Shown here: piece after piece, positions 20,438 to 36,527 of the stretch
How positions within the stretch are numbered: the stretch's first letter is position 1
Layout: the number at the start of each line of letters is the position of its first letter
Source: Rhodoplanes sp.
GTDB lineage: Bacteria > Pseudomonadota > Alphaproteobacteria > Rhizobiales > Xanthobacteraceae
Direction of reading: 5' to 3'
Assembly: GCF_013377085.1 (NCBI RefSeq)
Contig: NZ_JACAAX010000032.1
Coordinates: 1-64,000 of the forward strand
Length of the DNA: 64,000 bases
The notes under the pieces: model-generated
What the model saw: only the letters and a program-made list of their open reading frames with translations
What the model was told of the DNA's origin: nothing
Database searches by the model: none
Translations under genes and position numbers: made by a program

Positions 20438-21703
20438 ATGAGCCAGTCGAGCGACTTCGTTCCCGCGCCCGTTCCGGATGCGCGCGGGGAGCCCCATATG
20501 CGCCGCTTCGACGAGCAGCGCTGGGTGATCGACAACATCATCCGGGCGAACGGCATCGACTGGGACCAGCCGCGCTCGGTCTATCTCGCCGCGCCCTGCG
20601 GGCCGGAGGCGAATGCCGATTTCGCCGTCATCCGCGAGCGCGTCAAGAAGATGGGCGACATCGGTCCGGCCTTCGAGGCGGTGGCGCGCCGGCGCGAGGC
20701 CAAGGCGCAGGCCGCCGAGGCCGACGGGCACTTGGTCACGGCGCGCGACAACTGGTACATGGCGGCCGTGCAGTGGGCCGCGGCGCAATGGCCCTACGAC
20801 CGGAACGACGCCAAGAACCTCGACTGCAATGCGCGCAAGCGCGCCTGCTTCACCAAATATGCCGCGCTCGCCGATCACCACGTCGAGCCGGTGTGGATCC
20901 CGTTCGAGGGCAGGGCGCTGCCGGCCTGGTTCCACCTGCCGCCAGGCTATCGCGGCGGTCGCGTGCCGGTGGTGATCAACGTGCCCGGCATGGACAGCTT
21001 CAAGGAAGCCGCGGTGGCGCTCGCCAACGACCGCTTCCTGGCGCGCGGCATGGCCGTGCTGGCGATCGACGGCCCGGGCCAGTACGAGGCGCCGATCGTC
21101 GGCGTGTATTTCTCCACCGACCGCTGGGCGGCCGCCGGTCGCCCGATCGTCGACTGGCTGGTGGCACGGCCCGAGATCGACGCCGAGCGCATCGGCCTGG
21201 TCGGCACCAGCTTCGGCTCGTACTTCGGCACGATCCTCACGGCTCATGAATCGCGGATAAAGGCGTGCGCCGTGATGTCGGTGTGCCACGAGCCGGGCGG
21301 CGAGACGATCTTCCAGCAGGCGTCGCCGACCTTCAAGAAGCGCTTCATGTACATGTCGGGCATCACCGGCGAGGCGGAGTTCGACGCGTTCCGCAAGACC
21401 ATCACCTGGGAAGGGCATGCCGAGCGCATCACGGCGCCGTATCTGTGCGTCGCCGGCGAGTGCGAGGAGCTGAGCCCGCTCGAGCATTCCGAGCGGCTGC
21501 TGGCCGCACTGCGCGGACCAAAACAGTTCGTCGTCTATCAGGAGTCGCGCCACTCGGTCGGCAACGTCGCCTCGACCAATCTCGGCCCGTTCCCGCCGAG
21601 CATGATCGCCGACTGGTTGCTCGACCGCCTCGCCGGCAAGCCGATGATGAGCGAGCGCTGGTTCGTGCGCTCGACCGGGCAGGTCGAGAAGACGCCGATG
21701 TGA
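20438..21703 (+). CDS. Alpha/beta hydrolase of the FrsA/pseudooxynicotine-hydrolase type
   Basis: Protein of 421 aa with a helical N-terminal cap (about 1-150) and a C-terminal alpha/beta hydrolase domain. The nucleophile elbow is GLVGTSFGSYFG (about residue 255), the likely acid lies in AGECEELSPLEHSE (Glu rather than Asp) and the His in ESRHSVGN. The layout resembles the family of 2,6-dihydropseudooxynicotine hydrolase and related C-C or ester hydrolases. GCAAGGA precedes the ATG. The substrate is unknown; it is a single-gene unit between two repeats. Confidence 0.8.
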   Translation: MSQSSDFVPAPVPDARGEPHMRRFDEQRWVIDNIIRANGIDWDQPRSVYLAAPCGPEANADFAVIRERVKKMGDIGPAFEAVARRREAKAQAAEADGHLVTARDNWYMAAVQWAAAQWPYDRNDAKNLDCNARKRACFTKYAALADHHVEPVWIPFEGRALPAWFHLPPGYRGGRVPVVINVPGMDSFKEAAVALANDRFLARGMAVLAIDGPGQYEAPIVGVYFSTDRWAAAGRPIVDWLVARPEIDAERIGLVGTSFGSYFGTILTAHESRIKACAVMSVCHEPGGETIFQQASPTFKKRFMYMSGITGEAEFDAFRKTITWEGHAERITAPYLCVAGECEELSPLEHSERLLAALRGPKQFVVYQESRHSVGNVASTNLGPFPPSMIADWLLDRLAGKPMMSERWFVRSTGQVEKTPM

Positions 21704-21845: not shown

Positions 21846-22790
21846 TCACCCTCGCCGCCTGCCGCGCAGATGGCGGTAGGCGCTGCGGACATTGGCGCCG
21901 ATCCATTCCGGATAGCGCGGCATCGTCTCATAGCGGGGCAAGCGGACGTCGCGCGCCGCCGTGTCCTCGGAGGCGCCGGAGCCGATCGCTGTCGCCACGG
22001 CGTCGCGCAGGGCTGTGAGGAGATCGCGGAATTTTCCGAGCTCGCGCAGGCTGGCGGGCGGACCGTGGCCCGGAATGACGGTGTCGATCTCGAAGGTGAG
22101 CACCGTGTCGAGCACCCGGATCCAGCCGTCGAGATCGCAGTCGCCGATCCACGGAAAGCGGCCGTGCACGAACAGGTCGCCGAGGAACAAGACCTTGGCG
22201 CGCTCGAGATGGACGACGACGTCGCCGTCGCAATGGGCGGGTCCGAAATAGCCGAGCCGCACCACCTCGTCGGCGAGATGGAAGGCGAAGCGGTCGCTGA
22301 ACGTGTGGGTCGGCGGCACGATGGTGATGCGCTCGTAGCCTGGCTCCGACAGGCGGTGGTCGGCTTCCGCCCGCGCTGCCGCATCGTTCGCGACCAGATC
22401 CGAAAAATTCTCGCCGTAGCACAGCGCCGACTTGGTCGGCAGGTCGGTCACGGTCCAGCCCCGGCCGCCATTGGCGCCGAGCAGCGTCGCGAAGGCCTCG
22501 GCGGTGCGCTCGTGGGCGATGATCGGCACCTCGCCGGCGAACACCGCATTTCCGGCGACGTGGTCGAGATGATAGTGCGTGTTGACGACGGCCCGCACCG
22601 GCTTGCCGAGCTGGTCGGCGAGCGCCGCCCGAAAGCTGCGGGCGAGACTTTCGTTCTGCTGGGTGTCGATCACCAGCAGCGAGTCGCCGGTGTCGACCGC
22701 GCCGGCGTTGGAGTCTCCGTCTGCTCCGATCCACGCATAGGCGCCGGCGCCGACGGGGTGGAGCTGTGCGGCTGGCGAAGATTTCGTCAT
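21846..22790 (-). CDS. MBL-fold metallo-hydrolase
   Basis: Metallo-beta-lactamase-fold protein of 314 aa. The dinuclear metal motif is NTHYHLDHVAGN (HxHxDH), with a second His in FGPAHCDGDVVVH, Asp in LFLGDLFVHGRFP and a last His in VIPGHGP. This subtype resembles quinoprotein-relay/SoxH-like or glyoxalase-like periplasmic hydrolases, though no signal peptide is seen. The ATG at 22790 is used; a TTG one codon upstream also exists. The substrate cannot be inferred. Confidence 0.88.
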   Translation of the reverse strand: MTKSSPAAQLHPVGAGAYAWIGADGDSNAGAVDTGDSLLVIDTQQNESLARSFRAALADQLGKPVRAVVNTHYHLDHVAGNAVFAGEVPIIAHERTAEAFATLLGANGGRGWTVTDLPTKSALCYGENFSDLVANDAAARAEADHRLSEPGYERITIVPPTHTFSDRFAFHLADEVVRLGYFGPAHCDGDVVVHLERAKVLFLGDLFVHGRFPWIGDCDLDGWIRVLDTVLTFEIDTVIPGHGPPASLRELGKFRDLLTALRDAVATAIGSGASEDTAARDVRLPRYETMPRYPEWIGANVRSAYRHLRGRRRG

Positions 22791-23020
22791 CAAAAATGAG
22801 TCCGGATCGTAAGGTCACCGTCGCGTGGCGGCGGGCAGGCGCCGGACGACGAATTCGAAGTGTATGATCGGTCGGGGCGAGTTGTCCAAATGCTTCGCGT
22901 CGCCGGACGGTAGGCCGGGCCGCGCACCGCACGGGATCGCGTGCACGGTTTTTGCATGCAGCGAGGCTCGCTGCTAAGCAGGGTCGAGGAGGCCGCCCGG
23001 CCTCGCTGCCGAAGGTTGTC

Positions 23021-24451
23021 ATGAACTCGTCTGTCACGTCTGCCGAGGATCTCGCCCGGCTCGATGCCGTCGCGCTCGCTGCGGCGATCCGCTCCCGCCA
23101 GGTCTCGCCCCGCGAGGTCGTCGAAGCCGTCATCGACCGCATCGAGCGGCGCGACGGCCCCGTCAACTCGATCTGCACCATCGCCCGTGAGCAGGCCCGC
23201 CAAGCCGCCTTGGCGGCCGAGGCCGCCGTCATGCAGGGGGCGCCGCTCGGGCCGCTGCACGGCGTCCCGGTCGGCATCAAGGACGTGACGCCGACGGCCG
23301 GCATCCGCACCACCTTCGGGTCGAAACTCTACGAGACCAACATCCCGGCGGCCGACGCCGAGGTGGTGCGGCGCCTCAAGGCCGCCGGCGCCATCGTGGT
23401 CGCCAAGACCAACACGCCGGAGTTCGCGGCCGGCGCCAACACGTTCAACGAGCTGTTCGGCGTCACCCGCAATCCCTGGGATACGCGGCTGTCGGCCGGC
23501 GGATCGACCGGCGGCGGCGCCGCCGCGCTCGCGGCCGGGCTGTTGCCGCTCGCCGAGGGCACCGATTTCGGCGGCTCGCTGCGCGTGCCCGCGTCGTTCT
23601 GTGGGGTGGTGGGCTTGCGCCCGACTCCAGGCTTGACGCCGATGCGGCCGGGCGTGCTGCCGTGGGACTCGCTGCGGGTATCCGGGCCGATGGCGCGCAC
23701 CGCCGAGGACGTCGCCCTGATGATGGGAGCGATCGCCGGACCCAGCGCCGAATCTCCGATCTCGCTGCCGGTGTCGATGGACGGGCTGCTCGACCAGGTG
23801 CGCCGCTTCTCCGTCAAGGGCCTCAAGGTCGGCTATGTCGACGACGTCAGCGGCGTCGGCATCGAGGGCGGCATCGCCTCGCTGTGCCGCCGCGCCGCCC
23901 ATGCCCTCGCCGACGCCGGCGCCATCGTCGAGGAGACGGTGCTCGACCTCACCGACGGCACCGAGGCCTTCCCGGTGCTGCGCGGCGCGGCCGTGCTGCT
24001 GACCCACCGCTCGCGGATGAATCAGATCGAGCAGATGGGCAAGAACCTCGCCGGCAACATCCGCTACGGCCAGTCGCTCACCCTCGCCCAGGTGGTCGAG
24101 GCGGAGGCCGCGCGGGCGCGCCTGTGGGAGCGCACCTGCGCGTTCTTCTCGCGCTTCGACGTGCTGCTCACGCCCTGCGTCCCGGTGCCGCCGTTCCCGG
24201 TCGAGCAGAACCACCCGACCCACATCGGCGGCCGGCCGATGAAGAGCTATATCGACTGGATCGCTCCGACCTATGTGCTGACGCTGGTCGGCGTGCCGAC
24301 CGCCTCGGTGCCGGCCGGGCTCGACGGCAACGGCCTGCCGGTCGGCGTCCAGGTCGCCGCGCCGCGCCTCGCCGAGGCGACCGTGCTGGGCGTCGCCCGC
24401 ACCCTGCAACAGCTCGTTCCCGTCCCGACGATCGCTCCAGGATTCCGCTGA
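23021..24451 (+). CDS. Amidase signature family enzyme 1
   Basis: Amidase of 476 aa. The catalytic Lys is in VPVGIKDV (about residue 86). The cis-Ser is in SAGGSTGGGAAALA, where the second Ser of the usual GGSSGG is replaced by Thr, and the nucleophile Ser is in GTDFGGSLRVPASFCGVVG. The family hydrolyses carboxamides, and some members open ureido acids (ureidomalonase, biuret or allophanate hydrolases). It is followed without a gap by a second amidase and stands at the head of a block with HyuAB and a ring-opening amidohydrolase. I infer a role on the linear amide made by ring opening. Confidence 0.9.
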   Translation: MNSSVTSAEDLARLDAVALAAAIRSRQVSPREVVEAVIDRIERRDGPVNSICTIAREQARQAALAAEAAVMQGAPLGPLHGVPVGIKDVTPTAGIRTTFGSKLYETNIPAADAEVVRRLKAAGAIVVAKTNTPEFAAGANTFNELFGVTRNPWDTRLSAGGSTGGGAAALAAGLLPLAEGTDFGGSLRVPASFCGVVGLRPTPGLTPMRPGVLPWDSLRVSGPMARTAEDVALMMGAIAGPSAESPISLPVSMDGLLDQVRRFSVKGLKVGYVDDVSGVGIEGGIASLCRRAAHALADAGAIVEETVLDLTDGTEAFPVLRGAAVLLTHRSRMNQIEQMGKNLAGNIRYGQSLTLAQVVEAEAARARLWERTCAFFSRFDVLLTPCVPVPPFPVEQNHPTHIGGRPMKSYIDWIAPTYVLTLVGVPTASVPAGLDGNGLPVGVQVAAPRLAEATVLGVARTLQQLVPVPTIAPGFR

Positions 24452-25657
24452 ATGACCGCCCCAAAGCGCCTCGCCGATCCGCACAACGCCTTCTGCCACG
24501 ACGTCGACGTCCACATCGACGGCAAGCCCGGCGGCCCTCTGTCCGGCCTCGCCTTCGGGGCCAAGGATCTGTTCCACGTGAAGGGCCACCGCACCGGCGG
24601 CGGCAATTTCGACTGGCGCGACACGCATCCGCCCGCGGACGAGACCGCCTGGGCCATCGAGGCGCTGCTCGCCGCCGGCGCCACCCTGGTCGGCAAGACC
24701 ATCACGGACGAGATTTCCCGCGGCATCTTCGGGGAGAGCGCGTTCTACGGCACGCCGACCAATGCGCGTGCGCCCGGCCGCATTCCGGGCGGCTCGTCGA
24801 GCGGCTCGGCCGCCGCGGTCGCCGGCGGCACCGTGCCGTTCGCGCTCGGCACCGACACGGCCGGCTCGGTGCGGGTGCCGTCGTCGTTCTGCGGCCTCTA
24901 TGGCATCCGCACCACCCACGGCCGTGTGCCGTTCCAGGGCGTGCTGCCGCAGGCGCCGAGCTTTGACACGGTCGGCTGGATGGCCGACGACGCCGAGGTC
25001 TTCGCCAAGGTCAGCGCCGTGCTGCTGGAGAGCGAGATCGAGCCCGTGCGGCCGGGCCGCATCTTCCTCGCCGAGGACGCACTCGCCGTCGCCGAGCCGG
25101 CGGTCGCCGCCGCCGTCGAGGCGGCCGTTGCGCGGGCCTTCGCGCAGGGGACCGTCATCGAGCGCGTCCGCCTGTCGCCGACCGGCCTCGCCGACTGGTC
25201 GTCGCACCAGGCCGCTCTCCAGGGCCGCGAGGCCTGGACCACCTTCGGCGACTGGATCGACAGCACCAATCCGCGCTTCAGCTTCGAGGTCGCCGACAAT
25301 TTTTTGCGCGGCACCCGGGCCGGTCCCGACGAGCTCGCCGCGGCCCGCGACGTGCGCGAGCAGGTGCGCGAGCGCGTCCACACGCTGCTCGCCGACGGCA
25401 GCGTCATCGCGGTGCCGACGACGCCGTTCGCCGCGCCGCTTGCCGGCCAGAAGCGCTCGACCATGTGGGGCCTGCGCACCGGCATCATCGCGCTGACCGC
25501 GATCTCCGGCATGGCCGGCACGCCGCAGGTGACGATGCCGTTCGCGTCCGTCGACGGGCTGCCGGTCGGCGTGTCGCTGATCGGTCCGCCCGGCGCCGAC
25601 GAGTGGCTGATCGGCGCCGCCCTCGACGCCGCCCGCCGGGGCGTTGTTCGCGCCTGA
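24452..25657 (+). CDS. Amidase signature family enzyme 2
   Basis: Shorter amidase of 401 aa whose ATG directly follows the stop of the first amidase (TGAATG), so the two are coupled. The catalytic Lys lies in AFGAKDLF, the cis-Ser in IPGGSSSGSAAAVAGG and the nucleophile in GTDTAGSVRVPSSFCGLYG. It lacks the long C-terminal segment of larger members. The compact form resembles AtzE-like or plant-AMI1-like amidases. The likely role is a second hydrolytic step in the same pathway; the exact amide is unknown. Confidence 0.9.
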   Translation: MTAPKRLADPHNAFCHDVDVHIDGKPGGPLSGLAFGAKDLFHVKGHRTGGGNFDWRDTHPPADETAWAIEALLAAGATLVGKTITDEISRGIFGESAFYGTPTNARAPGRIPGGSSSGSAAAVAGGTVPFALGTDTAGSVRVPSSFCGLYGIRTTHGRVPFQGVLPQAPSFDTVGWMADDAEVFAKVSAVLLESEIEPVRPGRIFLAEDALAVAEPAVAAAVEAAVARAFAQGTVIERVRLSPTGLADWSSHQAALQGREAWTTFGDWIDSTNPRFSFEVADNFLRGTRAGPDELAAARDVREQVRERVHTLLADGSVIAVPTTPFAAPLAGQKRSTMWGLRTGIIALTAISGMAGTPQVTMPFASVDGLPVGVSLIGPPGADEWLIGAALDAARRGVVRA

Positions 25658-25688
25658 GCATGGTTCGCGGTCGACGGAGGGGCCGGCC

Positions 25689-26582
25689 ATGGAACTCCGC
25701 CAGATCCGCTACGCCCTCAGCGTCGCCAAGGAGCGCAGCTTTACGCGCGCCGCCGAGCGCCTGAACGTGTCGCAGTCGGCCGTCAGCGAGCAGGTGCGGA
25801 TGCTCGAGGCGAGCATCGGCTTCTCGCTGTTCCGTCGCACGCCGCGCGGCATCGAGGTCACCGAGCCGGGCCGCACTTTCTTCTACGAGGCCGAGCGCGT
25901 CGTCGGCGACTTCACCAGCCTGTGGGACATCGCCCGTAGGCTCAAGCGCGCCCCCTCCGAGACGCTGACGCTCGCCATGGGCTCCGGCATGGCCCAGATC
26001 GTCATTCCAAAGCTCTTTCGCGAGGTGCCGGACACGCTGCGCACCGTGCGGCTGGAAATCCTCACGGCGCCGACCAAGACCATCTTCGCCCATCTCGCCG
26101 AGGAGAAGATCGACGCCGGGCTGGCGATCGAGTCGGACCCCGAGCACGTGCCGGCCGGCATCGTGTTCGAGCCGCTCGCCGAGGCCGAGCTGGCGCTGAT
26201 CGCACATCCCTCGCATGTCCTGGCGCGCAGTCCGCAGGCCGTCGATATCGGCCGCCTGGTGCTGGAGCCGATCGTGATGAGCGAGCTGTCGGTCGGCTAC
26301 GGTCGCGTCGTCCACGAGATGTTCGCCGAGCTCGGCATCCGCCCCAACATCCTGGCGGTCGCCGACAACATCGAGACCATCAAGGTGATCGTGCAGTCGG
26401 GGCGCGGTATCGCCATCGTGCCGCGTGCCTGCGTCGACAACGAGGTCGCGCTCGGCGTGCTGCGGGCGCTGCCGATCGTGCCGCAGCGCAACATCCGCAT
26501 GCACCTCTACCGGCGCCGCCAGGCGATGTCGCGCCGCAAGGAGAGCCACCTCGCCGTGGTGCGGGCCGCCCTGGTGGCGTGA
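25689..26582 (+). CDS. LysR family transcriptional regulator
   Basis: Regulator of 297 aa. The N-terminal winged HTH is MELRQIRYALSVAKERSFTRAAERLNVSQSAVSEQV (about 1-60), with an effector domain to the end. It sits 31 bp after the amidase pair on the same strand and 278 bp before hyuA, so it probably controls the surrounding amide-catabolic genes. A family A repeat lies downstream. The effector is unknown. Confidence 0.93.
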   Translation: MELRQIRYALSVAKERSFTRAAERLNVSQSAVSEQVRMLEASIGFSLFRRTPRGIEVTEPGRTFFYEAERVVGDFTSLWDIARRLKRAPSETLTLAMGSGMAQIVIPKLFREVPDTLRTVRLEILTAPTKTIFAHLAEEKIDAGLAIESDPEHVPAGIVFEPLAEAELALIAHPSHVLARSPQAVDIGRLVLEPIVMSELSVGYGRVVHEMFAELGIRPNILAVADNIETIKVIVQSGRGIAIVPRACVDNEVALGVLRALPIVPQRNIRMHLYRRRQAMSRRKESHLAVVRAALVA

Positions 26583-26590
26583 TTGCCTCC

Positions 26591-26693
26591 GTCATTCCGG
26601 GGCGCCGCGGAGCGGCGAACCCGTAATCCAGCGACAAACACCGAATGTGACGCTGGATTCCGGGTCCGGCGCGTTGCGCCGTCCCGGAATGAC
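26591..26693. repeat. Palindromic repeat family A, copy 3
   Basis: GTCATTCCGGGGCGCCGC...GTAATCCAG on the left and CTGGATTCCGGGTCCGGCG...GTCCCGGAATGAC on the right, between the LysR gene and hyuA. Confidence 0.9.
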
Positions 26694-26860
26694 CGGTGGA
26701 AGCGGTTGCGCTGCAACCGCAACTCTGCATCTCCGAGCCATCGGATTTTCCGATAATGGGTTCGCCAATCCCGTTTGGACATGGGCTTTGCGCCTCCGCA
26801 TAGTTTCGCTGTCGGACTTCGCGCCCGCTTTCGGGTGCGCGAGACAGGAGACGGCACAGG

Positions 26861-29122
26861 ATGGCGCAAGGCGCGACGCACCCTCGGCTGCGGATCGGCA
26901 TCGACACCGGCGGCACCTTCACGGACATCGTCGCGGTCGATGCGGCCTCGGGCGCCATGCGGGTCACCAAGGTCGCCTCGACGCCGCACAATCCGGCCAT
27001 CGGCCTGGTGCGCGGCGTCACGGCGATCCTGAAGGACGCCGGCGGCACGGTCGCCGATGTGGCGGGACTCGCGCACGGCACCACGGTCGCCACCAATGCG
27101 CTGCTGCAGGGCGCGATCGACTCGCTCGGCCTGATCGTCACCGAGGGTTTTCGCCACGTGCTGGAGATCGCCCGGCAGTCGGTGCCGGACGGCTACGGCA
27201 ACTCGTATTTCTGGGTGAAGCCGGACCGCCTGGTGCCGCTGCATCGGGTGCACGAGATCGGCGGCCGGCTGAACGTGCGCGGCGAGGAGCTGCGGCCGCT
27301 CGACCAGGAGAGCGTGCGGGCCGCCGCGCGCGCCTTCAAGCAGCAGGGCGTGCGTGCGATCGGCATCTGCCTGATCCACGCCTATGCCAATCCCGACCAC
27401 GAGCGCCGCGCCGCCGCGATCGTGGCGGAGGAATATCCCGAGGCCGTGTTGTCGCTGTCCTGCGAGGTGCTGCCCGAGTATCGCGAATACGAACGCACCG
27501 TCACGACCCTGGTCGATGCGTTCGTCAAGCCGCATGTCGGCCGCTATCTGCGCCGCATCGCCGACGAGCTGGGCTCGGAGTTGCGGGAAAAGCCGTTCCT
27601 GGTGATGCAGTCCAGCGGTGGCGTCGCCAGCGCCGAGCAGGTGATGAAGAAGCCGATCACCACGGCGCTCTCGGGACCTGCGGCCGGCGCGCTCGGCAGC
27701 GCCGTCATCGCCGAGATCGCCGGCTTCCCGGATCTGGTGACGCTCGACGCCGGCGGCACCTCGACGGATCTGTGCCTGATCGAAGGCGGCCGGCCGACCG
27801 TCACCAATGGCGGCTCCGTCGGCCCGTTCCCGGTGCGGGTGCCGATGATCGACATCAAGACCATCGGCACGGGCGGCGGCTCGATCGCCTGGATTTCGCG
27901 CGAAGGGCACCTGAAGGTCGGGCCGAAGAGTGCCGGCGCCGATCCGGGGCCCATGTGCTACCCCAACGGTGGCGACGAGCCGACCATCACGGACGCCAAT
28001 CTGGTGCTCGGCCGCATTCCGCCGGCGCTGATCGGCGGCGGCATCGCGCTCGACCGCGAGCGGGCGCGCGCCGGGCTCGCGGCGCTCGCTGCGAAATTGC
28101 CCGGCGAGATGAGCCCGGAACGACTGGCCGAGGGCATCATAGAAATCGCCAACTGGAACCAGGCCAACGCCATCCGCCAGATGACGGTGCAGCGCGGCAT
28201 CGATCCGCGCGACTTTGCCCTTCTGTCGTTCGGCGGCTCCGGGCCGGCGCAGTCGCCCGCCGTGATGGCACTGGTCGGCATGAAGGCCTGCATCGTGCCG
28301 CCCAATCCCGGCAACCTCTCGGCCTTCGGGCTCCTGGCGGTCGATTGGCGCACCGACCACATCGTCACCAAGGTGATGCACGAGAGCGCCATCGACCTTG
28401 CGGCGGTCGCCGCCATCTATCGCGGCCTCGAGGCCGATGCCAGCAGCACGCTGGAGCGCGACGGCATCGCACCCGAGCGGGTGCGTCTGGTGCGCGAGGC
28501 GGATCTCCGCTACGCGGGCCAGTCCATGGAGGTGCGGGTCGTGGCGCCCGCCGGGCTGGTCGACGAGGCATTCCTGTCCGGCCTGATCGAGGCGTTCCAC
28601 GCGGCTCACCTGAGAACGTTCGGCTACGACTATGCAGGCCGCCAGAAGGTCGAGCTGGTCAACTTCACGGTCTCCGGCTTCGGCGTGATCGAGCGGCCGG
28701 CGATGCCGCGGCTCGCACCGCGTAGCGGCGCCCCGGTGATGCCGGCGCGGCGCCCGGTCTGGTTCGGCGGCGCCTTCGTCGACACGCCGGTGCTGCAGCG
28801 CGCGACGCTGTCGGCCGGCGAGACCATCTTCGGCCCGCTGGTGGTGGAAGAGTTCGGCTCCACCACGGTGGTGTTTCCGGGGCAGACTCTCGAGGTCGAC
28901 CCGCACGGGATTCTGATCATTCACAACACGGATGCTGCTCCTTCGGCACGGCGCGCGCCTTCGTCGCTCCCTCCCCCCTTGTGGGGGAGGGACGGGGAGG
29001 GGGGTGAGCCGCAGGCACGGAGCGACGTCGCTACCCCCCTCCCTGACCCTCCCCCACAAGGGGGGAGGGAACAGTCTGCGGTGCGTGGAGAACGGACCGG
29101 ATATCAGGATCTGGGGCTGTGA
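26861..29122 (+). CDS. Hydantoinase/oxoprolinase subunit A (HyuA-like) with repeat-encoded tail
   Basis: ATP-dependent amidohydrolase subunit of 753 aa. The N-terminal nucleotide-binding motif is RIGIDTGGTFTDIVAVD, AHGTTVATNALL follows, and the second phosphate motif is LDAGGTSTDLCLI. GTGGGSIAW and ADPGPMCY are typical of N-methylhydantoinase/acetophenone-carboxylase-type A subunits. The normal fold appears to end near residue 690 (VDPHGILIIH). The last ~60 residues are Pro/Gly-rich and encoded largely by a family D palindromic repeat. The stop overlaps the hyuB start. With HyuB it would open a cyclic amide such as hydantoin, or cleave a lactam, at the cost of ATP. Confidence 0.92.
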   Translation: MAQGATHPRLRIGIDTGGTFTDIVAVDAASGAMRVTKVASTPHNPAIGLVRGVTAILKDAGGTVADVAGLAHGTTVATNALLQGAIDSLGLIVTEGFRHVLEIARQSVPDGYGNSYFWVKPDRLVPLHRVHEIGGRLNVRGEELRPLDQESVRAAARAFKQQGVRAIGICLIHAYANPDHERRAAAIVAEEYPEAVLSLSCEVLPEYREYERTVTTLVDAFVKPHVGRYLRRIADELGSELREKPFLVMQSSGGVASAEQVMKKPITTALSGPAAGALGSAVIAEIAGFPDLVTLDAGGTSTDLCLIEGGRPTVTNGGSVGPFPVRVPMIDIKTIGTGGGSIAWISREGHLKVGPKSAGADPGPMCYPNGGDEPTITDANLVLGRIPPALIGGGIALDRERARAGLAALAAKLPGEMSPERLAEGIIEIANWNQANAIRQMTVQRGIDPRDFALLSFGGSGPAQSPAVMALVGMKACIVPPNPGNLSAFGLLAVDWRTDHIVTKVMHESAIDLAAVAAIYRGLEADASSTLERDGIAPERVRLVREADLRYAGQSMEVRVVAPAGLVDEAFLSGLIEAFHAAHLRTFGYDYAGRQKVELVNFTVSGFGVIERPAMPRLAPRSGAPVMPARRPVWFGGAFVDTPVLQRATLSAGETIFGPLVVEEFGSTTVVFPGQTLEVDPHGILIIHNTDAAPSARRAPSSLPPPLWGRDGEGGEPQARSDVATPLPDPPPQGGREQSAVRGERTGYQDLGL
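28968..29070. repeat. Palindromic repeat family D, copy 1, inside hyuA
   Basis: TCCCTCCCCCCTTGTGGGGGAGGG on the left, mirrored by CCCTCCCCCACAAGGGGGGAGGGA on the right. It lies in the hyuA reading frame and encodes a PPPLWG...PPPQGGRE tail. Copy 2 at 36423 is intergenic. Confidence 0.9.
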
Positions 29123-31008
29123 TGGACATGGCTGTGACATCCGGCATCGTCGACGCTCCGGCGTCTATGAAGCCCGTCGACCCGATCATTCTGCAGATCG
29201 TCGAGGGCACGCTCAACTCGATCGAGGCCGAGATCGAGTATGCGATCGAGCGCACGGCGCGCTCGCCGATGATCCGCGAGGCGCACGACTACCGGGTCGG
29301 CCTGTTCGACCGCCGCTGCCGCAAGCTCACCGGGCGTTCCTACTCGGCGATGCCGAACGCCGTGGTGCGCGATTTCCCCATCGAAACGATGCGGCCCGGC
29401 GACGTCTATCTGATGAACGACACCTATCTGACCGAGGGCTCGATCGGCCATCTGCCGGATCTGTGCTCGACCGTTCCGGTGTTCCACGACGGCGAGGTGG
29501 TCGCTTTCATCCAGGCCTTCGGCCATCACGACGACATCGGTGGCCGGGTGCCCGGCTCGATGCCCGGCACGGCGACCTCGGTGTTCGAGGAAGGCCTCGC
29601 GGTTCCGCCGATCAAATTCTACTCGGACGGCGTGCGTAACGAAGCGGCCTTCACCATCATCAAGCGCAACACCCGCGTGCCCGAGATGCTGGCGGCCGAT
29701 CTCGACTCGGAGATGCAGGCCTGTCTGATGGGCGCGCGCCGTATGGCCGAGCTGTTCGCGCGCTTCGGCAAGGCGACCGTCGAGGCGTGCTTCCAGGCCA
29801 TCCTGGAAAAATGCCGCGACGTCTTCGCCGGCGAGCTTTTGGCCAAGATCGCCGACGGCGAATATTCCTGGGAAGACTATGTCGAGCACGACGGCCTGAC
29901 CGACCCGAAGCTGCACAAGCTCGCGCTGAAGATGACCAAGCGCGGCCGAAAGATCACGCTCGACTTCACCGGCACGGATCCGCAGTCCACCGGGCCGATC
30001 AACTGGCCGGCCGACTATGCCGGCGGCGCCTTCCTGATCAAGTGGATCGCCCCGATCCTGCGCAATCTCGCCGACACGCCGGAGCGCGCGGCCGAGATCG
30101 ACGTCAACGAGGGTGTCTGCGAGGTGTTCGACGTGGTGTTCCCGCCGAAGGGAACGCTGATCACGCCGGAATGGCCGGCGCCCACCAATGCGCGCAGCTT
30201 CGTGCTGCTGCGCTGCCTGTGCCTGCTCGCCGGCGTGGTGGCGCAGGCCGTCGACGGCCGCATCCCGGCCGACCAGGAGACCATCCGCTACACCGGCTTC
30301 TTCGGCATCGACCGCGACGGCAAGCCGTTCCTGTCGCGCGAGGTTCTGGGCGGGGGCTCAGGCGGGCGTTTCTACGCCGACGGCAACGACGCCATCCACA
30401 TCGTGCCGGACTCGCGCAACCAGCCGGCCGAGTTCACCGAGACGCGGTTTCCGCTCCTGGTCGAGAAGCTGGCGCTGCGCACCGACTCAGGCGGCGCGGG
30501 CTATCGCCGCGGCGGGCTCGGCTACGAGAAGCATTACCGCGCGCTGGTCGATTGCCGCACCATCGTGACGGCCGACCGTGTCCGCCTCGGCTGCTACGGC
30601 GTCAAGGGCGGCAAGGCCGGCCAGCCGTTCTGCGTCACGGTCGACCTCGAAGGAGAAGCGCGAAAACTCGGCGGGCTGGTCGACGGCGAGCCGGTCAAGG
30701 CCGGGCAGGTGGTCCGGGTCGTCACCACGGGGGGCGGCGGCTGGGGTGATCCCTTGACGCGAGAGCCGGAGCTGGTCGCGGGCGACGTCACCGAAGGCAA
30801 GGTCTCGGCGGGCGCGGCGCGCGACGACTACGGCGTGGTGCTGATCACGTCGGCGGAGGGCGAGGCGGCGGTGGATGCCGCGGCGACTTCCGCACTGCGG
30901 GATGAAATCAGGTTGCGGCGATCCTCGCCGCTGCCGATGATCGATCGTGGCCCGGGCTTCGAGGCGATGCTGCGGGGCGACTGCGAGCCGTGGACACGCA
31001 CGGGCTGA
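29122..31008 (+). CDS. Hydantoinase/oxoprolinase subunit B (HyuB-like)
   Basis: Subunit B of 628 aa. DPIILQIVEGTLNSIEAEIEYAIERTARSPMIREAHDYRVGLFD is the standard N-terminus, and PGDVYLMNDTYLTEGSIGHLPDL and AFGHHDDIGGRVPGSMPG carry the metal-binding region typical of HyuB. PTNARSFVLLRCLC and GGGSGGRFYADGND follow. The C-terminal third contains GGAGYRRGGLGYEKHYRAL and TTGGGGWGDPL. The start ATG overlaps the hyuA stop by one base; GTG at 29119 or ATG at 29128 are alternatives. It forms the catalytic complex with HyuA. Confidence 0.92.
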   Translation: MDMAVTSGIVDAPASMKPVDPIILQIVEGTLNSIEAEIEYAIERTARSPMIREAHDYRVGLFDRRCRKLTGRSYSAMPNAVVRDFPIETMRPGDVYLMNDTYLTEGSIGHLPDLCSTVPVFHDGEVVAFIQAFGHHDDIGGRVPGSMPGTATSVFEEGLAVPPIKFYSDGVRNEAAFTIIKRNTRVPEMLAADLDSEMQACLMGARRMAELFARFGKATVEACFQAILEKCRDVFAGELLAKIADGEYSWEDYVEHDGLTDPKLHKLALKMTKRGRKITLDFTGTDPQSTGPINWPADYAGGAFLIKWIAPILRNLADTPERAAEIDVNEGVCEVFDVVFPPKGTLITPEWPAPTNARSFVLLRCLCLLAGVVAQAVDGRIPADQETIRYTGFFGIDRDGKPFLSREVLGGGSGGRFYADGNDAIHIVPDSRNQPAEFTETRFPLLVEKLALRTDSGGAGYRRGGLGYEKHYRALVDCRTIVTADRVRLGCYGVKGGKAGQPFCVTVDLEGEARKLGGLVDGEPVKAGQVVRVVTTGGGGWGDPLTREPELVAGDVTEGKVSAGAARDDYGVVLITSAEGEAAVDAAATSALRDEIRLRRSSPLPMIDRGPGFEAMLRGDCEPWTRTG

Positions 31009-31026
31009 AAAAGGGGAGTGCCACGC

Positions 31027-32121
31027 ATGGCCATCGACGTCGCCAAGATCGAAATCAAGAGCGTGCAGGATGCCTCCGGGCTCGACGCCTGCATCGACAG
31101 CGGGCGGTTCTCGGCCGACCAGGTGGTCGCCGTGATCGGCAAGACCGAGGGCAATGGCGGCGTCAACGATTTTACGCGCCTTCTGTCCGACCAAGCGTTC
31201 CGCCGCGTGCTGATCAGGAAGGGCACGCGCGGCGAGGCGGCGGTGGCCGGCATCCCGATGGTGTGGTCGGGCGGCTGCGACGGCGTCATCACGCCGCACG
31301 CGACCGTCTTCGCCCGCACGCCGGAGACCGGCCCGGCCTCCGAGGCGCGGCTCGTCATCGGCACGGCGCTGAGCGAGGAGCTTTTGCCGGAGGACATCGG
31401 CCGCCCTGCCATGGTCCAGAAGGTTGCGGCCGCCGTGAAGGCGGCGATGCGCGATGCCGGCATCGACGACCCCAAGGACGTGCATTACGTCCAGACCAAG
31501 ACGCCGCTCCTCACCATCGACTCGGTGCGCGATGCGGAGCATCGCGGCCAGACCGTCGCCTGCGAGGTGCACGATTCGATGGGCGTCTCCAACGGCACCA
31601 CGGCGCTCGGCATCGCTGTCGCGCTCGGCGAGGTCGAGATGCCGGAGGCGGAGGAGATCTGCCGCAATCTCGATCTCTACTCGTCGGTCGCCTCCTGCTC
31701 GTCGGGTGTCGAGCTGACGCGGGCCCAGATCGTCCTGCTCGGCAACAAGGCCGGTGCCGGCGGGCGCTATCGCATCGGCCATGCGGTGATGAAGGACGCG
31801 CTCGACATCGACGGCATCTACGACGCCATCCGCTATGCCGGGCTCGCGCTGCCGGAGCGAGCGCGCGCCGCCGATCTCGACGGCCGGCTGGTCAACGTCT
31901 TCATCAAATGCGAGGCCGACAAGCGAGCGCTGCTGCGCGGCCGCCGCCAGATCATGCTCGACGACTCCGACGTGCATCACCACCGTCATTCCAAAGGCGC
32001 GGTGGGCGGTGTCGCGGCAGCGGCGATCGGCGATCCCTGCGTTTTCGTCTCGGTCGATGCGATGCATCAGGGGCCGCATGGCGGCGGCCCGGTGATCGCC
32101 ATCGTCGACGCCGGGGCATAG
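31027..32121 (+). CDS. Ring-opening amidohydrolase (cyanuric acid hydrolase/barbiturase family)
   Basis: Protein of 364 aa, the usual length for this small family with its threefold internal repeat. Each repeat contributes a Lys/Ser pair: Lys in [10 protein letters not shown] with Ser in VWSGGCDG, Lys in VQTKTPLLT with Ser in [12 protein letters not shown], and Lys in VNVFIKCEA with Ser in [12 protein letters not shown]. In AtzD, as I recall it, the third segment is VSGG; here it is VSVD, so the substrate may differ. HQGPHGGGP is the conserved end. Known substrates are cyanuric acid and barbiturate. GGGGAG precedes the ATG at 31027. Confidence 0.88.
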
Positions 32122-32244
32122 GCCGAACGGCCCGTGCCGTGGGGGCGCGAAACGCGGCTCACGGCACGGGACTTGCAAGGTTTTCGATGGTTCTCACGGC
32201 GCGCGGCCGTGTCGTCCGGAACCGGTCAGAACGGAGGAGAGAGC

Positions 32245-33222
32245 ATGCGGTCGGTGGTGTCGATGATGCGCGGTGTTCTGGCCGCAGCGGGCTTTTTGGC
32301 CGCGACGATGTCGCCGGCGGGCGCACAGGACAAGGTGACGGTCGGCGTGTTCCCGGTCGCCTCGTCGCTGCCCTATTTCGTCGCGGTCGAGAAGGGATAT
32401 TTCAAGGAGCAGAACATCGCTCCCGAGATGGTGCGCCTGATCGGCGGCCCGCCCAATGTCGCGGCGCTGATCGGCAACCAGATCGATGCAGCCGCCGTGC
32501 TGGTGACGATCGAGGGCATGAACGCCGACATCAAGAAGCCCGGCGTCGCCATGTACATCTCGCTCAACAGCCAGAACAAGACCTATCAGATGGAGCAGTT
32601 CGTGGTCCGCAAGGGACTCACCGCCTCGACGCTCGCCGATCTGAAAGGCAAGAAGATCATGTCGGCGCCGGGGCCGGCCAACGTGACGATGGCCAAGGCG
32701 GCGCTCGCCGCCGTCGGGCTGAAGGAGGGCGACTACACGCTCGACCAGCTCGACATGGCCCAGCACGTCAACGCCATCACGGCCGGCACCTTCGACGCCG
32801 CCTTCACGCTGGAGCCGCAGGCCTCCACCATGCGCAAGCTCGGCGTCGCCTCGACGCTCGAGGCCGGCCTGATTGCCAAGTACGTGCTCGGCGATCCGGA
32901 GGCCAACGCCTTCGTGGCCGGTTGCGTCGTCTCCAGCGACTTCGTCAAGAACCGGCCGGACGTCGCCAAGCGGTTCACGGCCGCCTGGGCGCAGGCCGTC
33001 GCCTTCATCAACGCCAAGCCGGACGAGGCGCGGAAGTTCCTCGCCAAGAACACCCTGACGCCCGACGACGTGGTCGACACCGTGCCGCTGGTCAAGTTCG
33101 TGATGACCAAGGATCTCACCGCCAAGGACAAGGCCGACTTCCAGCGCTTCATCGACTTCTCGGTGTCGACCGGGACGCTGAGCGAGAAGGTCGACGTCAC
33201 CAAGTATCTGCAGAGCTTCTGA
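32245..33222 (+). CDS. ABC transporter substrate-binding protein (NMT1/SsuA-like)
   Basis: Periplasmic binding protein of 325 aa. The signal peptide (residues 1-25, cleavage near SPAGAQ) is chosen with the ATG at 32245, which has a GGAGGAGAG site. VTVGVFPVASSLPYFVAVEKGYFKEQN is the classic NMT1/SsuA opening, and LADLKGKKIMSAPGPANVTM is the linker strand. The family carries sulfonates, nitrate, pyrimidine precursors, riboflavin and hydantoin-like compounds. With the downstream ATPase and permease it forms an importer, here probably for the cyclic amide degraded by the neighbouring enzymes. Confidence 0.92.
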   Translation: MRSVVSMMRGVLAAAGFLAATMSPAGAQDKVTVGVFPVASSLPYFVAVEKGYFKEQNIAPEMVRLIGGPPNVAALIGNQIDAAAVLVTIEGMNADIKKPGVAMYISLNSQNKTYQMEQFVVRKGLTASTLADLKGKKIMSAPGPANVTMAKAALAAVGLKEGDYTLDQLDMAQHVNAITAGTFDAAFTLEPQASTMRKLGVASTLEAGLIAKYVLGDPEANAFVAGCVVSSDFVKNRPDVAKRFTAAWAQAVAFINAKPDEARKFLAKNTLTPDDVVDTVPLVKFVMTKDLTAKDKADFQRFIDFSVSTGTLSEKVDVTKYLQSF

Positions 33223-33265
33223 TCCACCACTCCTTCCGATCCACCGGCCGGACCGCGGGTTGACC

Positions 33266-34072
33266 ATGTTCCAATCGCCGTCGATGTCGCACGATCCACC
33301 GGTTCATCACCGGACCGTGCCGCACGTGACGGTGCGAGGCCTGTCCAAGCGGTTCGGCGGTGCGGTGATCTACCAGGACTTCGACCTCGACATCCCGCGC
33401 GGCGAGCTGATCTCGGTGTTCGGCCCCAACGGCTGCGGCAAGAGCACGCTGATTAACATGATCGCCGGGCTGATCCCGATGGATGCGGGGCGCGTGCTGT
33501 TCGACGGGCAGACCATCGACGAGATCACGTTCGGCTATGTGTTCCAGAACTATCGCGAGGCGATGTTCCCCTGGATGCGGGCGTTCGATAACATCGAATA
33601 TCCGCTCAAGCTCCGCCGCGTTCCCAGGGCCGAGCGGCGGGCCCGGGTGGAGCGGCTGGTCGAGCATCTCGGCGTCAAGATCGATCTCAATCGCTATCCC
33701 TACCAGCTCTCCGGTGGTCAGCAGCAGCTCATCTCGATCATGCGGGCGCTGGTGGTCGAGCCGGAGATCCTGTTTCTCGACGAGCCGTTCTCGGCGCTCG
33801 ACTACGAGATGACGCTGTTCATGCGCGAGCAGCTCCAGCGCATCTTCGCCGAGACCAGGACCACCACGGTGCTGGTCTCGCATGATCTCGAAGAGGCGGT
33901 TTATCTCGCCGACCGCATCCTGCTCCTGTCGCGCGGGCCGGCCCGGGTCGCCGACTTCCCGGTCTATGCGGCGCCGCGGCCCCGGACCGACGAGACCCTG
34001 TCGGAGGCGAGCTTCGTGCGCATGAAGGCGCACTGCCTCGAGATCTTCCAGCGCGAGGTGCGACGCACATGA
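33266..34072 (+). CDS. ABC transporter ATPase (SsuB/TauB-like)
   Basis: ATPase of 268 aa. Walker A is GPNGCGKST, the Q-loop FGYVFQNYREAMFPW, the signature YQLSGGQQQLISIMRAL, Walker B EILFLDEPFSALD and the switch LVSHDLEEAVYL. The D-loop and EEAVYLADRI end match nitrate/sulfonate/taurine importers. ATG at 33266 has only a weak ribosome site; a second ATG at 33284 is possible. The stop overlaps the permease start (ATGA). Confidence 0.93.
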   Translation: MFQSPSMSHDPPVHHRTVPHVTVRGLSKRFGGAVIYQDFDLDIPRGELISVFGPNGCGKSTLINMIAGLIPMDAGRVLFDGQTIDEITFGYVFQNYREAMFPWMRAFDNIEYPLKLRRVPRAERRARVERLVEHLGVKIDLNRYPYQLSGGQQQLISIMRALVVEPEILFLDEPFSALDYEMTLFMREQLQRIFAETRTTTVLVSHDLEEAVYLADRILLLSRGPARVADFPVYAAPRPRTDETLSEASFVRMKAHCLEIFQREVRRT

Positions 34073-34830
34073 AGATGCCCAGCTTCGAGCCGCTGCGGCC
34101 GATCATCGGGGTGATCGCGCTTGTCCTCCTGTGGTACTGGGTGGTGTGGATGCGGCTGGTCGACCCGGTGCTGCTGCCGCCGCCGGTGGACACCTTCAAG
34201 GCCATGTGGACCGGCATGACGGGCGGCAAGCTCGGTCTCGATTTCGTGCGCACCGTGGAGCGCACCGTCTACGCGACCGCGATCGCCGCCGTGATCGCCA
34301 TCCCGCTCGGCATCGTGCTCGGCTCGGCCGAGAAGATGTACCGCTCGCTCGAGTTCGTCATCGACTTCTTCCGCTCGACCCCGGCCTCGGCGCTGTTCCC
34401 GCTGTTTCTGGTGCTGTTCGGGGTCGGCAACAAGACCAAGATCTCGGTCGCGGCCTTCGGGGCCGCGCTGGTGATTCTGTTCAACGTCGCCTACGGCGTC
34501 ATGAACGCGCGAAAGACGCGCCTGCTCGCCGCCAAGGTGATGGGGGCGTCGAGGCTGCGCATCCTGTTCGACGTGATGCTGCGCGAATCCCTGCCGCAGA
34601 CCTTTGTGGGCCTGCGCAACGGGGTGTCGCTCGCCCTCGTCATCGTCGTCGTCGCCGAGATGTTCATCGGCTCGACCGACGGCCTCGGTAACCGGGTGTT
34701 CGAGGCGCAACAGATGTTCGAGATGCCGGACATGTATGCGGCGATCTTCGCGGCCGGGGCGCTCGGCTACGGGCTCAACCTGTTGTTCCTGACGATGGAA
34801 CGCCGCTTCGTCCACTGGTCCGGGAAGTAG
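34069..34830 (+). CDS. ABC transporter permease (SsuC/TauC-like)
   Basis: Permease of 253 aa with about six membrane helices. PPPVDTFKAMW precedes the transmembrane domain, and the EAA coupling loop is AAKVMGASRLRILFDVMLRESLPQTFVGLRNGVSLAL. It is coupled to the ATPase by an ATGA overlap and completes the importer. A composite of repeat families E and B follows in the gap before the M24 gene. Confidence 0.93.
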   Translation: MKMPSFEPLRPIIGVIALVLLWYWVVWMRLVDPVLLPPPVDTFKAMWTGMTGGKLGLDFVRTVERTVYATAIAAVIAIPLGIVLGSAEKMYRSLEFVIDFFRSTPASALFPLFLVLFGVGNKTKISVAAFGAALVILFNVAYGVMNARKTRLLAAKVMGASRLRILFDVMLRESLPQTFVGLRNGVSLALVIVVVAEMFIGSTDGLGNRVFEAQQMFEMPDMYAAIFAAGALGYGLNLLFLTMERRFVHWSGK

Positions 34831-34845
34831 CCCAACCTCCGAGCC

Positions 34846-34962
34846 GTCATGCCCGCGCCGGTCGCGGGCGATCAAGGCCGCCGACCATTCCGCTCGTCCC
34901 CGCGAAGGCGGGGACCCAGAAGGAAGAAAAGCCGAGATTCCCGCTTGCGCGGGAATGAGCGG
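34846..34962. repeat. Repeat composite: family E half-copy and family B copy 2
   Basis: GTCATGCCCGCGCCGGTCGCGGGCGATCA (34846-34874) resembles one arm of family E. It is followed at 34890-34962 by a complete family B element (CCGCTCGTCCCCGCGAAGGCGGGGACCCAG to GATTCCCGCTTGCGCGGGAATGAGCGG). Together they fill most of the 319-bp gap between the permease and the M24 gene. Confidence 0.8.
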
Positions 34963-35149
34963 AGGATGTGGGTCCTCCTGGACCGCTCCCCGTTTCCGGC
35001 GCGCCAGCGTTGCAAGCCTGCGTGTTCCCGCATCGTGCTCCTGGTGTAGTCTCCTGCGCTCACCGGTTTCGCGGACCTGGGACGTCCTCCGTCCCGAGCG
35101 GCTCTTCCCGCCCGCGACCGCCAGAACAATGCACGAGGAGACAGTCCGC

Positions 35150-36373
35150 ATGGATCGGTATGCGCGCGGCCCCTTCAATGTCGGTTACGAGCAGCGGCTC
35201 GACGTCGCCGCGCTCCGCAGCAAGCGGGTCGCCAAGGCGCAGGAGCAGCGCCGCAAGGCCGGGCTCGACGCGCTCCTGGTGTGGAAGGACGAGAACTGCC
35301 GCTACCTGACGGATCTGCGGCCGCAACTCATCACCGGCAAGACGACGGCGCTCAACGGGGCGTTGCTGGTGGAGGGGAGGGCGCCCATCCTGTTCTGCTC
35401 GGGCGGCGAGCGCAACCGGGTCGACCTCACCATGCCGTGGATCGAGGAGGCACACACCATCCCGATCATCGAGGAGGTCGCCCTCGTCGACGGCATGGTC
35501 AAGGACATCCTCGGGCCGGTGCTGCAGGCGTACAGGCTGACCGACGCCAAGCTCGGCCTCGACGAATCGAACACCGTGTTCGTCAAGGCGTTGGCCCGTC
35601 ACTTCCCGAAGCTGCAGATCGAGGACGGCGACACGCCGATGCTCGCCGCCCGCCGGCACAAGCTGCCCGAGGAGATCGTGCTGCTGGAGGAGGCGACCGC
35701 GATCGCCGACGCCGTCACGGCCTCGGCCACCGCGGCGATCGCCGAGGGCGTGCGCGAATGCGACGTCGCCGGCGAGGCGATGCGCACGCTGTTCCGGCTC
35801 GGCGGCGAGTACTCGCACGTGATGACGCCGTTCGTCGCCTCCGGCGAGCACATGGCGCCGCCCAACCGCATCTGCAGCGACAAGCTGATCCGCCACGGCG
35901 ACATCGTCTTCATCGACATCGGCGCGGCCTTCGGCGGCTATTTCGGCGACATGGCGCGCGCCGTGATCTGCGGCAAGCCGTCCGACCAGCAGCGCAAGAT
36001 CTTCACCGCGGTCTACGAGGGCCTGATCGACGGCATCGCCGAGATGCGGCCCGGTCGCACCAACAAGGATTGTGCCGACGCGATCGTGCGCGCCGCCGGA
36101 AAGTACGGCCTCGACGGCCGTTTCCTGTCGCTGTTCATCGCCCACGGGGTCGGCATCGGCGCCAACGAGCCGCCTTATATCGGCGAGACGCTGCCAGGCG
36201 CGCCGACCTACGAGTTCGAGCCCGGCATGGTGTTCGCGGTCGAGCCGCTGATCTGGGTGCCGGGCGTGCGCGGCGGCGGCGGCGTGCGGCTCGAGGACAT
36301 GGTGCTGGTCACCGAGGGCGCCCCGCATGTCATGTCGCGCGCGCCCTACGACGAGAAGCTGCTGCTGGGGTAG
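35150..36373 (+). CDS. M24 family hydrolase (Xaa-Pro peptidase/creatinase fold)
   Basis: Protein of 407 aa with the creatinase-like N-terminal domain (about 20-160) and the pita-bread catalytic domain. All five metal ligands of M24 peptidases are visible: the two Asp in FIDIGAAFGGYFGDMAR, His in FIAHGVGIG, Glu in FAVEPLIW and Glu in VRLEDMVLV. Retention of the ligands argues for a metallohydrolase rather than true creatinase, which lacks them. GAGGAG is 9 nt before the ATG at 35150. It ends the plus-strand amide-catabolic block and could cleave a linear amide or amidine product. Confidence 0.88.
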   Translation: MDRYARGPFNVGYEQRLDVAALRSKRVAKAQEQRRKAGLDALLVWKDENCRYLTDLRPQLITGKTTALNGALLVEGRAPILFCSGGERNRVDLTMPWIEEAHTIPIIEEVALVDGMVKDILGPVLQAYRLTDAKLGLDESNTVFVKALARHFPKLQIEDGDTPMLAARRHKLPEEIVLLEEATAIADAVTASATAAIAEGVRECDVAGEAMRTLFRLGGEYSHVMTPFVASGEHMAPPNRICSDKLIRHGDIVFIDIGAAFGGYFGDMARAVICGKPSDQQRKIFTAVYEGLIDGIAEMRPGRTNKDCADAIVRAAGKYGLDGRFLSLFIAHGVGIGANEPPYIGETLPGAPTYEFEPGMVFAVEPLIWVPGVRGGGGVRLEDMVLVTEGAPHVMSRAPYDEKLLLG

Positions 36374-36422: not shown

Positions 36423-36527
36423 CTCTCTCCCCCCTTGTGGGGGAGAGGTGGAGAGGGGGGTGAGCCACTCGACGAATCGCCGGCGGTGTACCCCCCTCCC
36501 TGTCCCTCCCCCGCAAGGGGGGAGGGA
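36423..36527. repeat. Palindromic repeat family D, copy 2
   Basis: CTCTCCCCCCTTGTGGGGGAGAGG on the left and CCCTCCCCCGCAAGGGGGGAGGGA on the right, between the convergent M24 and phytase-like genes. Same family as the copy inside hyuA. Confidence 0.88.

Follow-up and report, generated by a model that had tools for sequence, protein, structure and literature searches.

A plus-strand gene block of Rhodoplanes sp. encoding a barbiturase-clade ring opener, HyuAB, two amidases, and an importer: a candidate cluster for the degradation of barbiturate-like cyclic imides

Introduction

In the AtzD/Bar family of toblerone-fold ring openers, five positions have been proposed to separate cyanurate hydrolases, which carry Arg195, Thr321, Arg325, Gly345, and Gly346 (AtzD numbering), from barbiturases (group VI of the family), which carry Asn, His, Lys, Val, and Ser or Ala at the same places. 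This signature was based on 68 sequences (PMC3758960), and the same article describes the oxidative pyrimidine pathway as rare. The Hyd family comprises two-subunit enzymes with the gene order hydA-hydB, which phosphorylate the amide carbonyl and open the ring; predicted 2-oxoindoleacetyl-CoA lactamases are also placed in the Hyd branch (PMC5214803). A third relevant system is the oxamate carbamoyltransferase AllFGH of Escherichia coli, with its carbamate kinase (PMC11326118); no word starting with "barbitur" occurs in the main text of that article. Here, we analyze a gene block in a 64,000-nucleotide stretch of Rhodoplanes sp. (assembly GCF_013377085.1, contig NZ_JACAAX010000032.1, positions 1 to 64,000; hereafter the window), in which a toblerone-fold ring opener is encoded with HyuAB, an ATP-dependent cyclic amidase of the Hyd type, two amidases (AmiA and AmiB), a LysR-type regulator, and an ATP-binding cassette (ABC) importer.

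Judging from gene content and sequence relationships, this block probably serves to import and degrade cyclic imides or ureides resembling barbiturate, with a barbiturase-amidase branch leading to malonate and HyuAB acting in parallel. No article in the open-licence literature searched names both barbiturase and hydantoinase, and none of those listed presents such a cluster in its title or abstract; the subscription literature was outside this scope, and prior notice is possible. No gene assigned to ureidomalonase was found in the parts of the literature examined.

Clade and specificity residues of the ring opener

The best solved relative of the ring opener was barbiturase (Bar, EC 3.5.2.1, PDB 5hwe), with 501 bits and 66% identity, and the cyanurate hydrolases reached at most 317 bits. 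In a tree of 40 rows (39 different), the ring opener and 5hwe fell within a 22-row clade (support 100/100) that left the three solved cyanurate hydrolases outside. A second toblerone-fold enzyme of the same genome (L001, contig C12:169656-170723) branched on the cyanurate-hydrolase side. The five diagnostic positions of the ring opener read Asn, His, Lys, Val, and Asp, so that four of them match the barbiturase signature and the fifth lies outside the published Ser/Ala, while Asn and Val-Asp stand in place of the Arg195 and Gly345-Gly346 of cyanurate hydrolases. We compared 92 barbiturase-clade rows (at least four of which repeat another row: L112/L030, L113/L041, L117/L079, and L118/L034). 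All of them, like the ring opener, carried Asn, His, Lys, and Val at positions 195, 321, 325, and 345 and retained the three Ser/Lys dyads. By its sequence, the ring opener is thus a barbiturase-clade enzyme and not a new specificity class. The original prediction had seen in it a hint of a new substrate and had itself named a place in the barbiturase clade among the outcomes that would speak against its reading; this is the place that the tree shows.

The third catalytic segment of the ring opener was correctly read in that prediction as VSVD, where solved cyanurate hydrolases have VSGG; the solved barbiturase has VSVS. Its use as a hint of a new substrate had to be abandoned. Asp at position 346 is the commonest form among the rows compared (70 of the 92, against 17 Ala, 4 Gly, and 1 Ser). 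It occurs at HyuAB-bearing loci as well as at those that carry FdrA (AllF) or AllG (e.g., L053, L063, L067, and L077), and the HyuAB-bearing locus of Catenulispora (L093) has Ser, indicating that this residue is no sign of a HyuAB-linked new substrate.

It is very improbable that the ring opener acts on cyanurate in an s-triazine pathway resembling atzDEF. The protein does exceed the NCBI equivalog cut-off for cyanurate hydrolase (447 versus 360 bits), the two amidases are reminiscent of AtzE and AtzF, and the genome encodes, at another locus, a paralogue from the cyanurate-hydrolase side of the tree. We rejected this pathway on the position in the tree and on the specificity residues, where Asn and Val replace Arg and Gly, and neither amidase reaches the AtzE cut-off. 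We infer that the NCBI cut-off for cyanurate hydrolase does not separate cyanurate from barbiturate activity. An analogy with isonicotinate or citrazinate degradation was dropped, as none of the articles listed gave help.

HyuAB and its pairing with the barbiturase

The setting of the ring opener, with HyuAB, an ABC importer, and amidases, distinguishes it from the solved barbiturase. HyuAB shares with hydantoinases, lactamases, and caprolactamase the adjacent alpha- and beta-subunit genes in the hydA-hydB order (the criterion of PMC5214803) and the Pfam domains of the family, namely, Hydantoinase_A with its N- and C-terminal domains and Hydantoinase_B. It differs from them in that it forms a separate clade with a link to barbiturase in many genomes, and in scoring below the equivalog cut-offs of caprolactamase CapAB (507 and 193 bits versus 1000), although the alpha-subunit model was the best NCBIfam match of HyuA. 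The best solved relatives of HyuB were N-methylhydantoinase 7hk5 and hydantoinase 6yra. HyuA retains, as read by eye, an N-terminal DTGGTFTD motif.

The nearest barbiturase loci, among the matches listed, were those of Rhodoplanes tepidamans (91%) and Rhodoplanes elegans (90%), both with the same cluster. Much of this gene set recurs in other genomes, so that the grouping is more than chance. Among 248 genomes of the family (our own included), 30 had the barbiturase (at least 78% identity) and 35 an orthologue of HyuB (at least 79%; 35 of 39 matches were kept, and four at 37 to 54% were left out). Both were found in 27 genomes (Fisher test; P = 9e−26, for genomes that are not independent), the barbiturase alone in 3, and HyuB alone in 8. 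In 25 of the 27 genomes, the barbiturase gene followed hyuB on the same strand at a distance of at most 1.3 kb (at most 100 bases in 21 of them), and the remaining 2 had the two genes on separate contigs.

Amidases and neighborhoods of barbiturase genes

AmiA and AmiB retain, as read by eye, the lysine and two serines of the amidase signature. They share with AtzE and AtzF this signature and the proximity of their genes to that of a toblerone-fold ring opener, but they score below the NCBI cut-off of the AtzE subfamily (232.5 and 200.1 versus 425.75 bits) and, in the NCBIfam scan, below that of allophanate hydrolase. The best solved relative of AmiB was biuret hydrolase 6c62 (AtzE; 140 bits). 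Malonamidase E2 was ruled out as the closest relative of AmiB, since at about 100 bits it came behind 6c62 and several GatA, fatty-acid-amide, and allophanate hydrolases. Counterparts of AmiA adjoin the barbiturase in other genomes, and relatives of AmiB are found downstream of it in L046, L049, L061, L072, and L134. The order in Bradyrhizobium sp. L055 is a weakly matched permease-like gene, a deaminase, barbiturase, AmiA, a decarboxylase, and a ligase. The AmiA of this locus is a plain candidate for the step that follows ring opening, and this is our main argument for considering the window amidases as putative ureidomalonases, with AmiA as a candidate for the hydrolysis of ureidomalonate and AmiB as a second one.

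The neighborhoods were sampled in the best 80 of at least 512 confirmed barbiturase loci (65 to 91% identical), which sample the clade without being exhaustive. Only plus-strand genes were counted, at cut-offs that we set ourselves, which leaves out a minus-strand HyuB of 290 bits in L053, minus-strand decarboxylases in L064 and L071, and two weak matches to AmiA, of 354 bits in L041 and 269 bits in L086. HyuA or HyuB was found in 21 loci, an AmiA- or AmiB-type amidase in 20, an NMT1-type binding protein in 19, a cytosine-deaminase-like gene in 18, FdrA or AllG in 16, and a CoxL-type molybdenum hydroxylase in 15. Some loci also encode malonyl-CoA decarboxylase and an AMP-binding ligase, which is expected if malonate is the product. 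The permeases of some barbiturase loci are nearest to uracil permease, and those associated with HyuAB to uracil or nucleobase permeases, in both cases below the cut-offs. Neighborhoods of barbiturase genes elsewhere thus contain pieces of a route from pyrimidines to malonate.

None of the 80 loci had FdrA/AllG together with HyuAB or together with an amidase (Fisher test; P of about 0.008 in each case, for related loci). The exclusion between amidases and FdrA/AllG is expected if both act on the opened product. At the loci with FdrA or AllG (L053, L063, L067, L076, L077, L080 to L085, L087, L095, L097, L100, and L101), AllH is also encoded in several cases and carbamate kinase in some. Relatives of the E. 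coli oxamate carbamoyltransferase (PMC11326118) thus stand beside the barbiturase in other lineages, at amidase-less loci, and by analogy a phosphorolytic, ATP-conserving cleavage of ureidomalonate is possible there. The set of FdrA, AllG, AllH, and kinase was not seen in the window block, and AllG is absent from the window genome. In viral contigs, 38 stretches matched the search pattern and none encoded a relative; of the plasmid matches, H1 and H2 carried no annotation in the stretch concerned.

Separate occurrence of HyuAB and the barbiturase

Two of the eight family genomes with HyuB alone (G205 and G207) are uninformative, with hyuB near a contig end. At the other six loci (L104 to L107, L109, and L111), hyuB leads directly into the binding-protein gene and the slot of the barbiturase is empty. 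A seventh locus without barbiturase, L124 from the class-wide sample, encodes HyuA, HyuB, CoxMSL, a permease, and AmiB, the same order as in L072 (refetched as L125), which does have the barbiturase. In a quick HyuB tree with support from the Shimodaira-Hasegawa-like approximate likelihood ratio test only, these seven loci, all in its 34-row clade, fell in four separate places inside barbiturase-bearing groups, which is most simply read as four losses of the barbiturase. Five of 47 loci had been dropped from this tree: L117, L118, and L125 as repeats of L079, L034, and L072, and L108 and L110 because HyuAB is near the contig end. The importer is kept in six of the seven loci and a matching LysR in four. 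HyuAB is thus independent of the barbiturase, in whose absence it persists in four HyuB lineages. One such lineage includes three genomes (G114, G149, and G212; 99 to 100% complete) with no toblerone-fold enzyme at all; G121 has two, neither of which passed the barbiturase search at an E value of at most 1e−100. No HyuAB was seen in 59 of the 80 barbiturase loci, many of them short stretches.

Split genes and remnants were found on both sides. Two loci without barbiturase, L105 and L107, have a frame-split amiA. In L115 (G192), which has the barbiturase and an intact amiA, it is hyuB that is divided between two frames, and L134 has barbiturase and AmiB beside an N-terminal piece of hyuA only. 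These may be cases of decay in progress, sequencing error being the other option. Among the remaining loci without barbiturase, the amidase is apparently intact in L106, L111, and L124, and runs off the contig in L109; none is seen in L104. There is a hint, from a small number of cases, that the amidase is tied more closely to the barbiturase than to HyuAB.

Relatives of the window LysR (48 to 91%) occur near many HyuAB loci, not all. They are present at 65 to 68% in the barbiturase-less loci L104 to L107, and none was found at L109, at L124, or at L111, whose contig begins in hyuB. At 49 to 52%, they also occur near the HyuAB-less barbiturase loci L038, L041, L055, and L134. HyuAB and the barbiturase thus seem, by the similarity of these regulators, often to answer to related ones. 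The CoxL beside HyuAB is of one type, with 72 to 91% identity among L027, L029, L072, L104, L107, L111, and L115, whether or not a barbiturase is present, and only 37 to 40% to the CoxL of two loci in which HyuAB was not observed (L026 and L038). A second HyuB clade (L116 and L128 to L131), 53 to 56% identical to the window HyuB, lies beside Cox-type genes, with no barbiturase in the stretches read, and suggests an older pairing of molybdenum hydroxylase and HyuAB. Three further loci labelled as barbiturase-less belong to this clade, and two of the genomes (G428 and G467) hold a barbiturase on another contig.

These patterns bear on how the two ring openers would work together. The original prediction invoked the stepwise opening of a single substituted or bicyclic compound; in such a series, HyuAB would act first and the barbiturase second, with the amidases finishing the work. 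The tight arrangement of hyuA, hyuB, and bar in 25 of the 27 family genomes with both agrees with this, as does the presence of HyuAB in Catenulispora L093, which is sister to 5hwe in the tree. Such a series is nevertheless unlikely, since each opener occurs without the other: HyuAB in the seven loci of four lineages, and the barbiturase in the many loci where no HyuAB was seen, in L134 with its hyuA piece, and in G192 with its split hyuB. Parallel branches fit this separate occurrence better than serial ones. If both enzymes instead opened barbiturate itself by two mechanisms, either would be dispensable, in line with the finding that each is missing or broken in places where the other persists, and that both occur alongside the same kinds of amidase and close to related LysR regulators. 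That 27 of 30 barbiturase genomes of the family keep HyuB is odd for plain redundancy, and ATP would be wasted on a ring that needs none to open, so we hold this shared-substrate arrangement to be improbable.

Gene layout and peripheral genes

The genes named by the original prediction are all present on the plus strand at the places it gave (Table 1). The Pfam scan covered all the named proteins except the M24 protein, and all of these passed their cut-offs; the M24 protein matched solved prolidases. The two amidase genes directly abut (24451/24452), hyuA and hyuB overlap by 4 bases, and 9 bases separate hyuB from the ring-opener gene. The start of the binding protein at 32245 was picked by eye inside an open reading frame spanning 32134-33222.

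Table 1. Features of the gene block and its surroundings in the window
Feature	Position	Strand	Match (score versus cut-off) or remark
Alpha/beta hydrolase	20438-21703	+	Weak FrsA likeness
Metallo-beta-lactamase-fold hydrolase	21846-22793	-	
AmiA, amidase-signature enzyme	23021..24451	+	Pfam Amidase, 341 versus 27 bits
AmiB, short amidase	24452..25657	+	NCBIfam PRK08310, 465 versus 391 bits; Pfam, 221 versus 27
LysR-type regulator	about 25689..26582	+	Pfam, 108 versus 28 bits
HyuA, ATP-binding subunit of ATP-dependent cyclic amidase	26861..29122	+	Pfam, 299 versus 23 bits
Palindromic GC-rich repeat	about 28965-29075		Within the 3' end of hyuA
HyuB subunit	29119..31008	+	Pfam, 451 versus 27 bits; also NCBIfam scan
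Barbiturase-clade toblerone-fold ring opener	31018..32121	+	Pfam, 463 versus 25 bits
NMT1/SsuA-type substrate-binding protein of importer	about 32245..33222	+	Pfam, 70 versus 21 bits; also NCBIfam scan
ABC transporter ATPase of importer	33260..34072	+	Pfam, 111 versus 25 bits
ABC transporter permease of importer	34069..34830	+	Pfam, 77 versus 26 bits
M24-family metallohydrolase, peripheral	about 35150..36373	+	121 bits to solved prolidases
Palindromic GC-rich repeat, similar	about 36425-36520		Directly after the M24 gene
LivF-like ABC ATPase joined to aldehyde dehydrogenase	38122-40398	-	Single 758-amino-acid open frame, apparent, read by eye

The M24 protein scores below every NCBIfam cut-off. 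Its metal ligands, as predicted, are kept in the alignment with prolidase 5cdl, the ligand residues being those that we presume for this family. Its inclusion in the pathway did not survive the comparison of loci: among the loci read, close matches were confined to those of Rhodoplanes, L024 and L025 (93% and 85% identity), with a further weak one in L103 (27%; 71 bits), and we ruled it out as a core part. Two hydrolase genes lie beside the amidases, and the metallo-beta-lactamase-fold one is also near amiA in R. tepidamans L024 (83%). The first palindromic repeat extends the C terminus of HyuA, and the HyuA proteins of L024 and L025 are without this tail.

Discussion

We propose that the ABC importer would bring in the ring compound, and that the barbiturase-clade enzyme would open barbiturate to ureidomalonate (3-oxo-3-ureidopropanoate) by its Ser/Lys dyads and without ATP; barbiturate is the substrate that we infer for this enzyme. 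AmiA, AmiB, or both would then cleave ureidomalonate to malonate and urea (the "ureidomalonase" step), and malonate may proceed via malonyl-CoA decarboxylase, for which the window genome has two matches. This would tie the cluster to oxidative pyrimidine breakdown. HyuAB would be a second, ATP-dependent opener, partly under related LysR regulators, that phosphorylates the amide carbonyl of a related ring in parallel with the barbiturase and not in series. The association with barbiturase, CoxLMS, and uracil- or nucleobase-like permeases suggests that this ring may be an oxidized pyrimidine or a close analogue. A more specific version, in which HyuAB opens a second oxidized pyrimidine such as 5-methylbarbiturate, formed from thymine by a uracil-oxidizing CoxLMS, with AmiA/AmiB as ureidomalonase, is tentative, and we give it a low probability. 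The barbiturase presumably handles methylbarbiturate poorly.

Several observations weigh against the proposed import-and-degrade cluster with parallel branches. In a class-wide sample of 385 genomes (our own included; HyuB at 76% identity or more), the barbiturase was found in 9 genomes and HyuB in 4, and only 3 of the 9 had a close HyuB. The other six include G428, G467, and G560, with a HyuB of the second type (53 to 56%) on other contigs, G479 (L133), with a divergent HyuAB-like pair near the barbiturase, and G646 (L134), with a hyuA remnant. Tight pairing of HyuAB and barbiturase is a feature of the family and of some further lineages, not of all barbiturases, and the co-occurrence of the core genes, on which the original prediction depended, stands within the family (27 of 30 genomes) and is looser across the class. 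The four inferred losses of the barbiturase could partly be gains. The window AmiA is only 48 to 53% identical to the AmiA of other genera, which share 59 to 94% among themselves (the 100% pair L079/L117 is one record), and its gene is at a different place in the order; it still looks like their diverged counterpart, because it is the sole match of the L031 AmiA in the window genome at an E value of at most 1e−60 (53% identity). Neither AmiA nor AmiB was found in the stretches read of L027 and L039, which have HyuAB and barbiturase and room downstream. Forty-four of the 80 barbiturase loci have neither an amidase nor FdrA/AllG, and the exclusion between the two is confounded with taxonomy and depends on self-chosen cut-offs and on a sample where only 41 loci span at least 19 kb. 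Finally, the window genome is without the type of CoxL that accompanies HyuAB in relatives (best match, 41%). This genome has ten CoxL-like molybdenum hydroxylase matches at 33 to 41% to that type, spanning most of the query, none of them close.

If the proposed pathway is right, it would name specific genes as candidates for ureidomalonase and perhaps also, in relatives, for the uracil-oxidizing enzyme. The recurring pairing of a barbiturase with an ATP-dependent opener makes the substrate of HyuAB directly testable, and the opening of 5-methylbarbiturate, if true, would be an activity new to HyuAB, completing a branch for thymine alongside that of the barbiturase. These neighborhoods also indicate two lineage-dependent routes for the cleavage of ureidomalonate, hydrolysis by amidases versus an ATP-conserving phosphorolysis of the AllFGH type.

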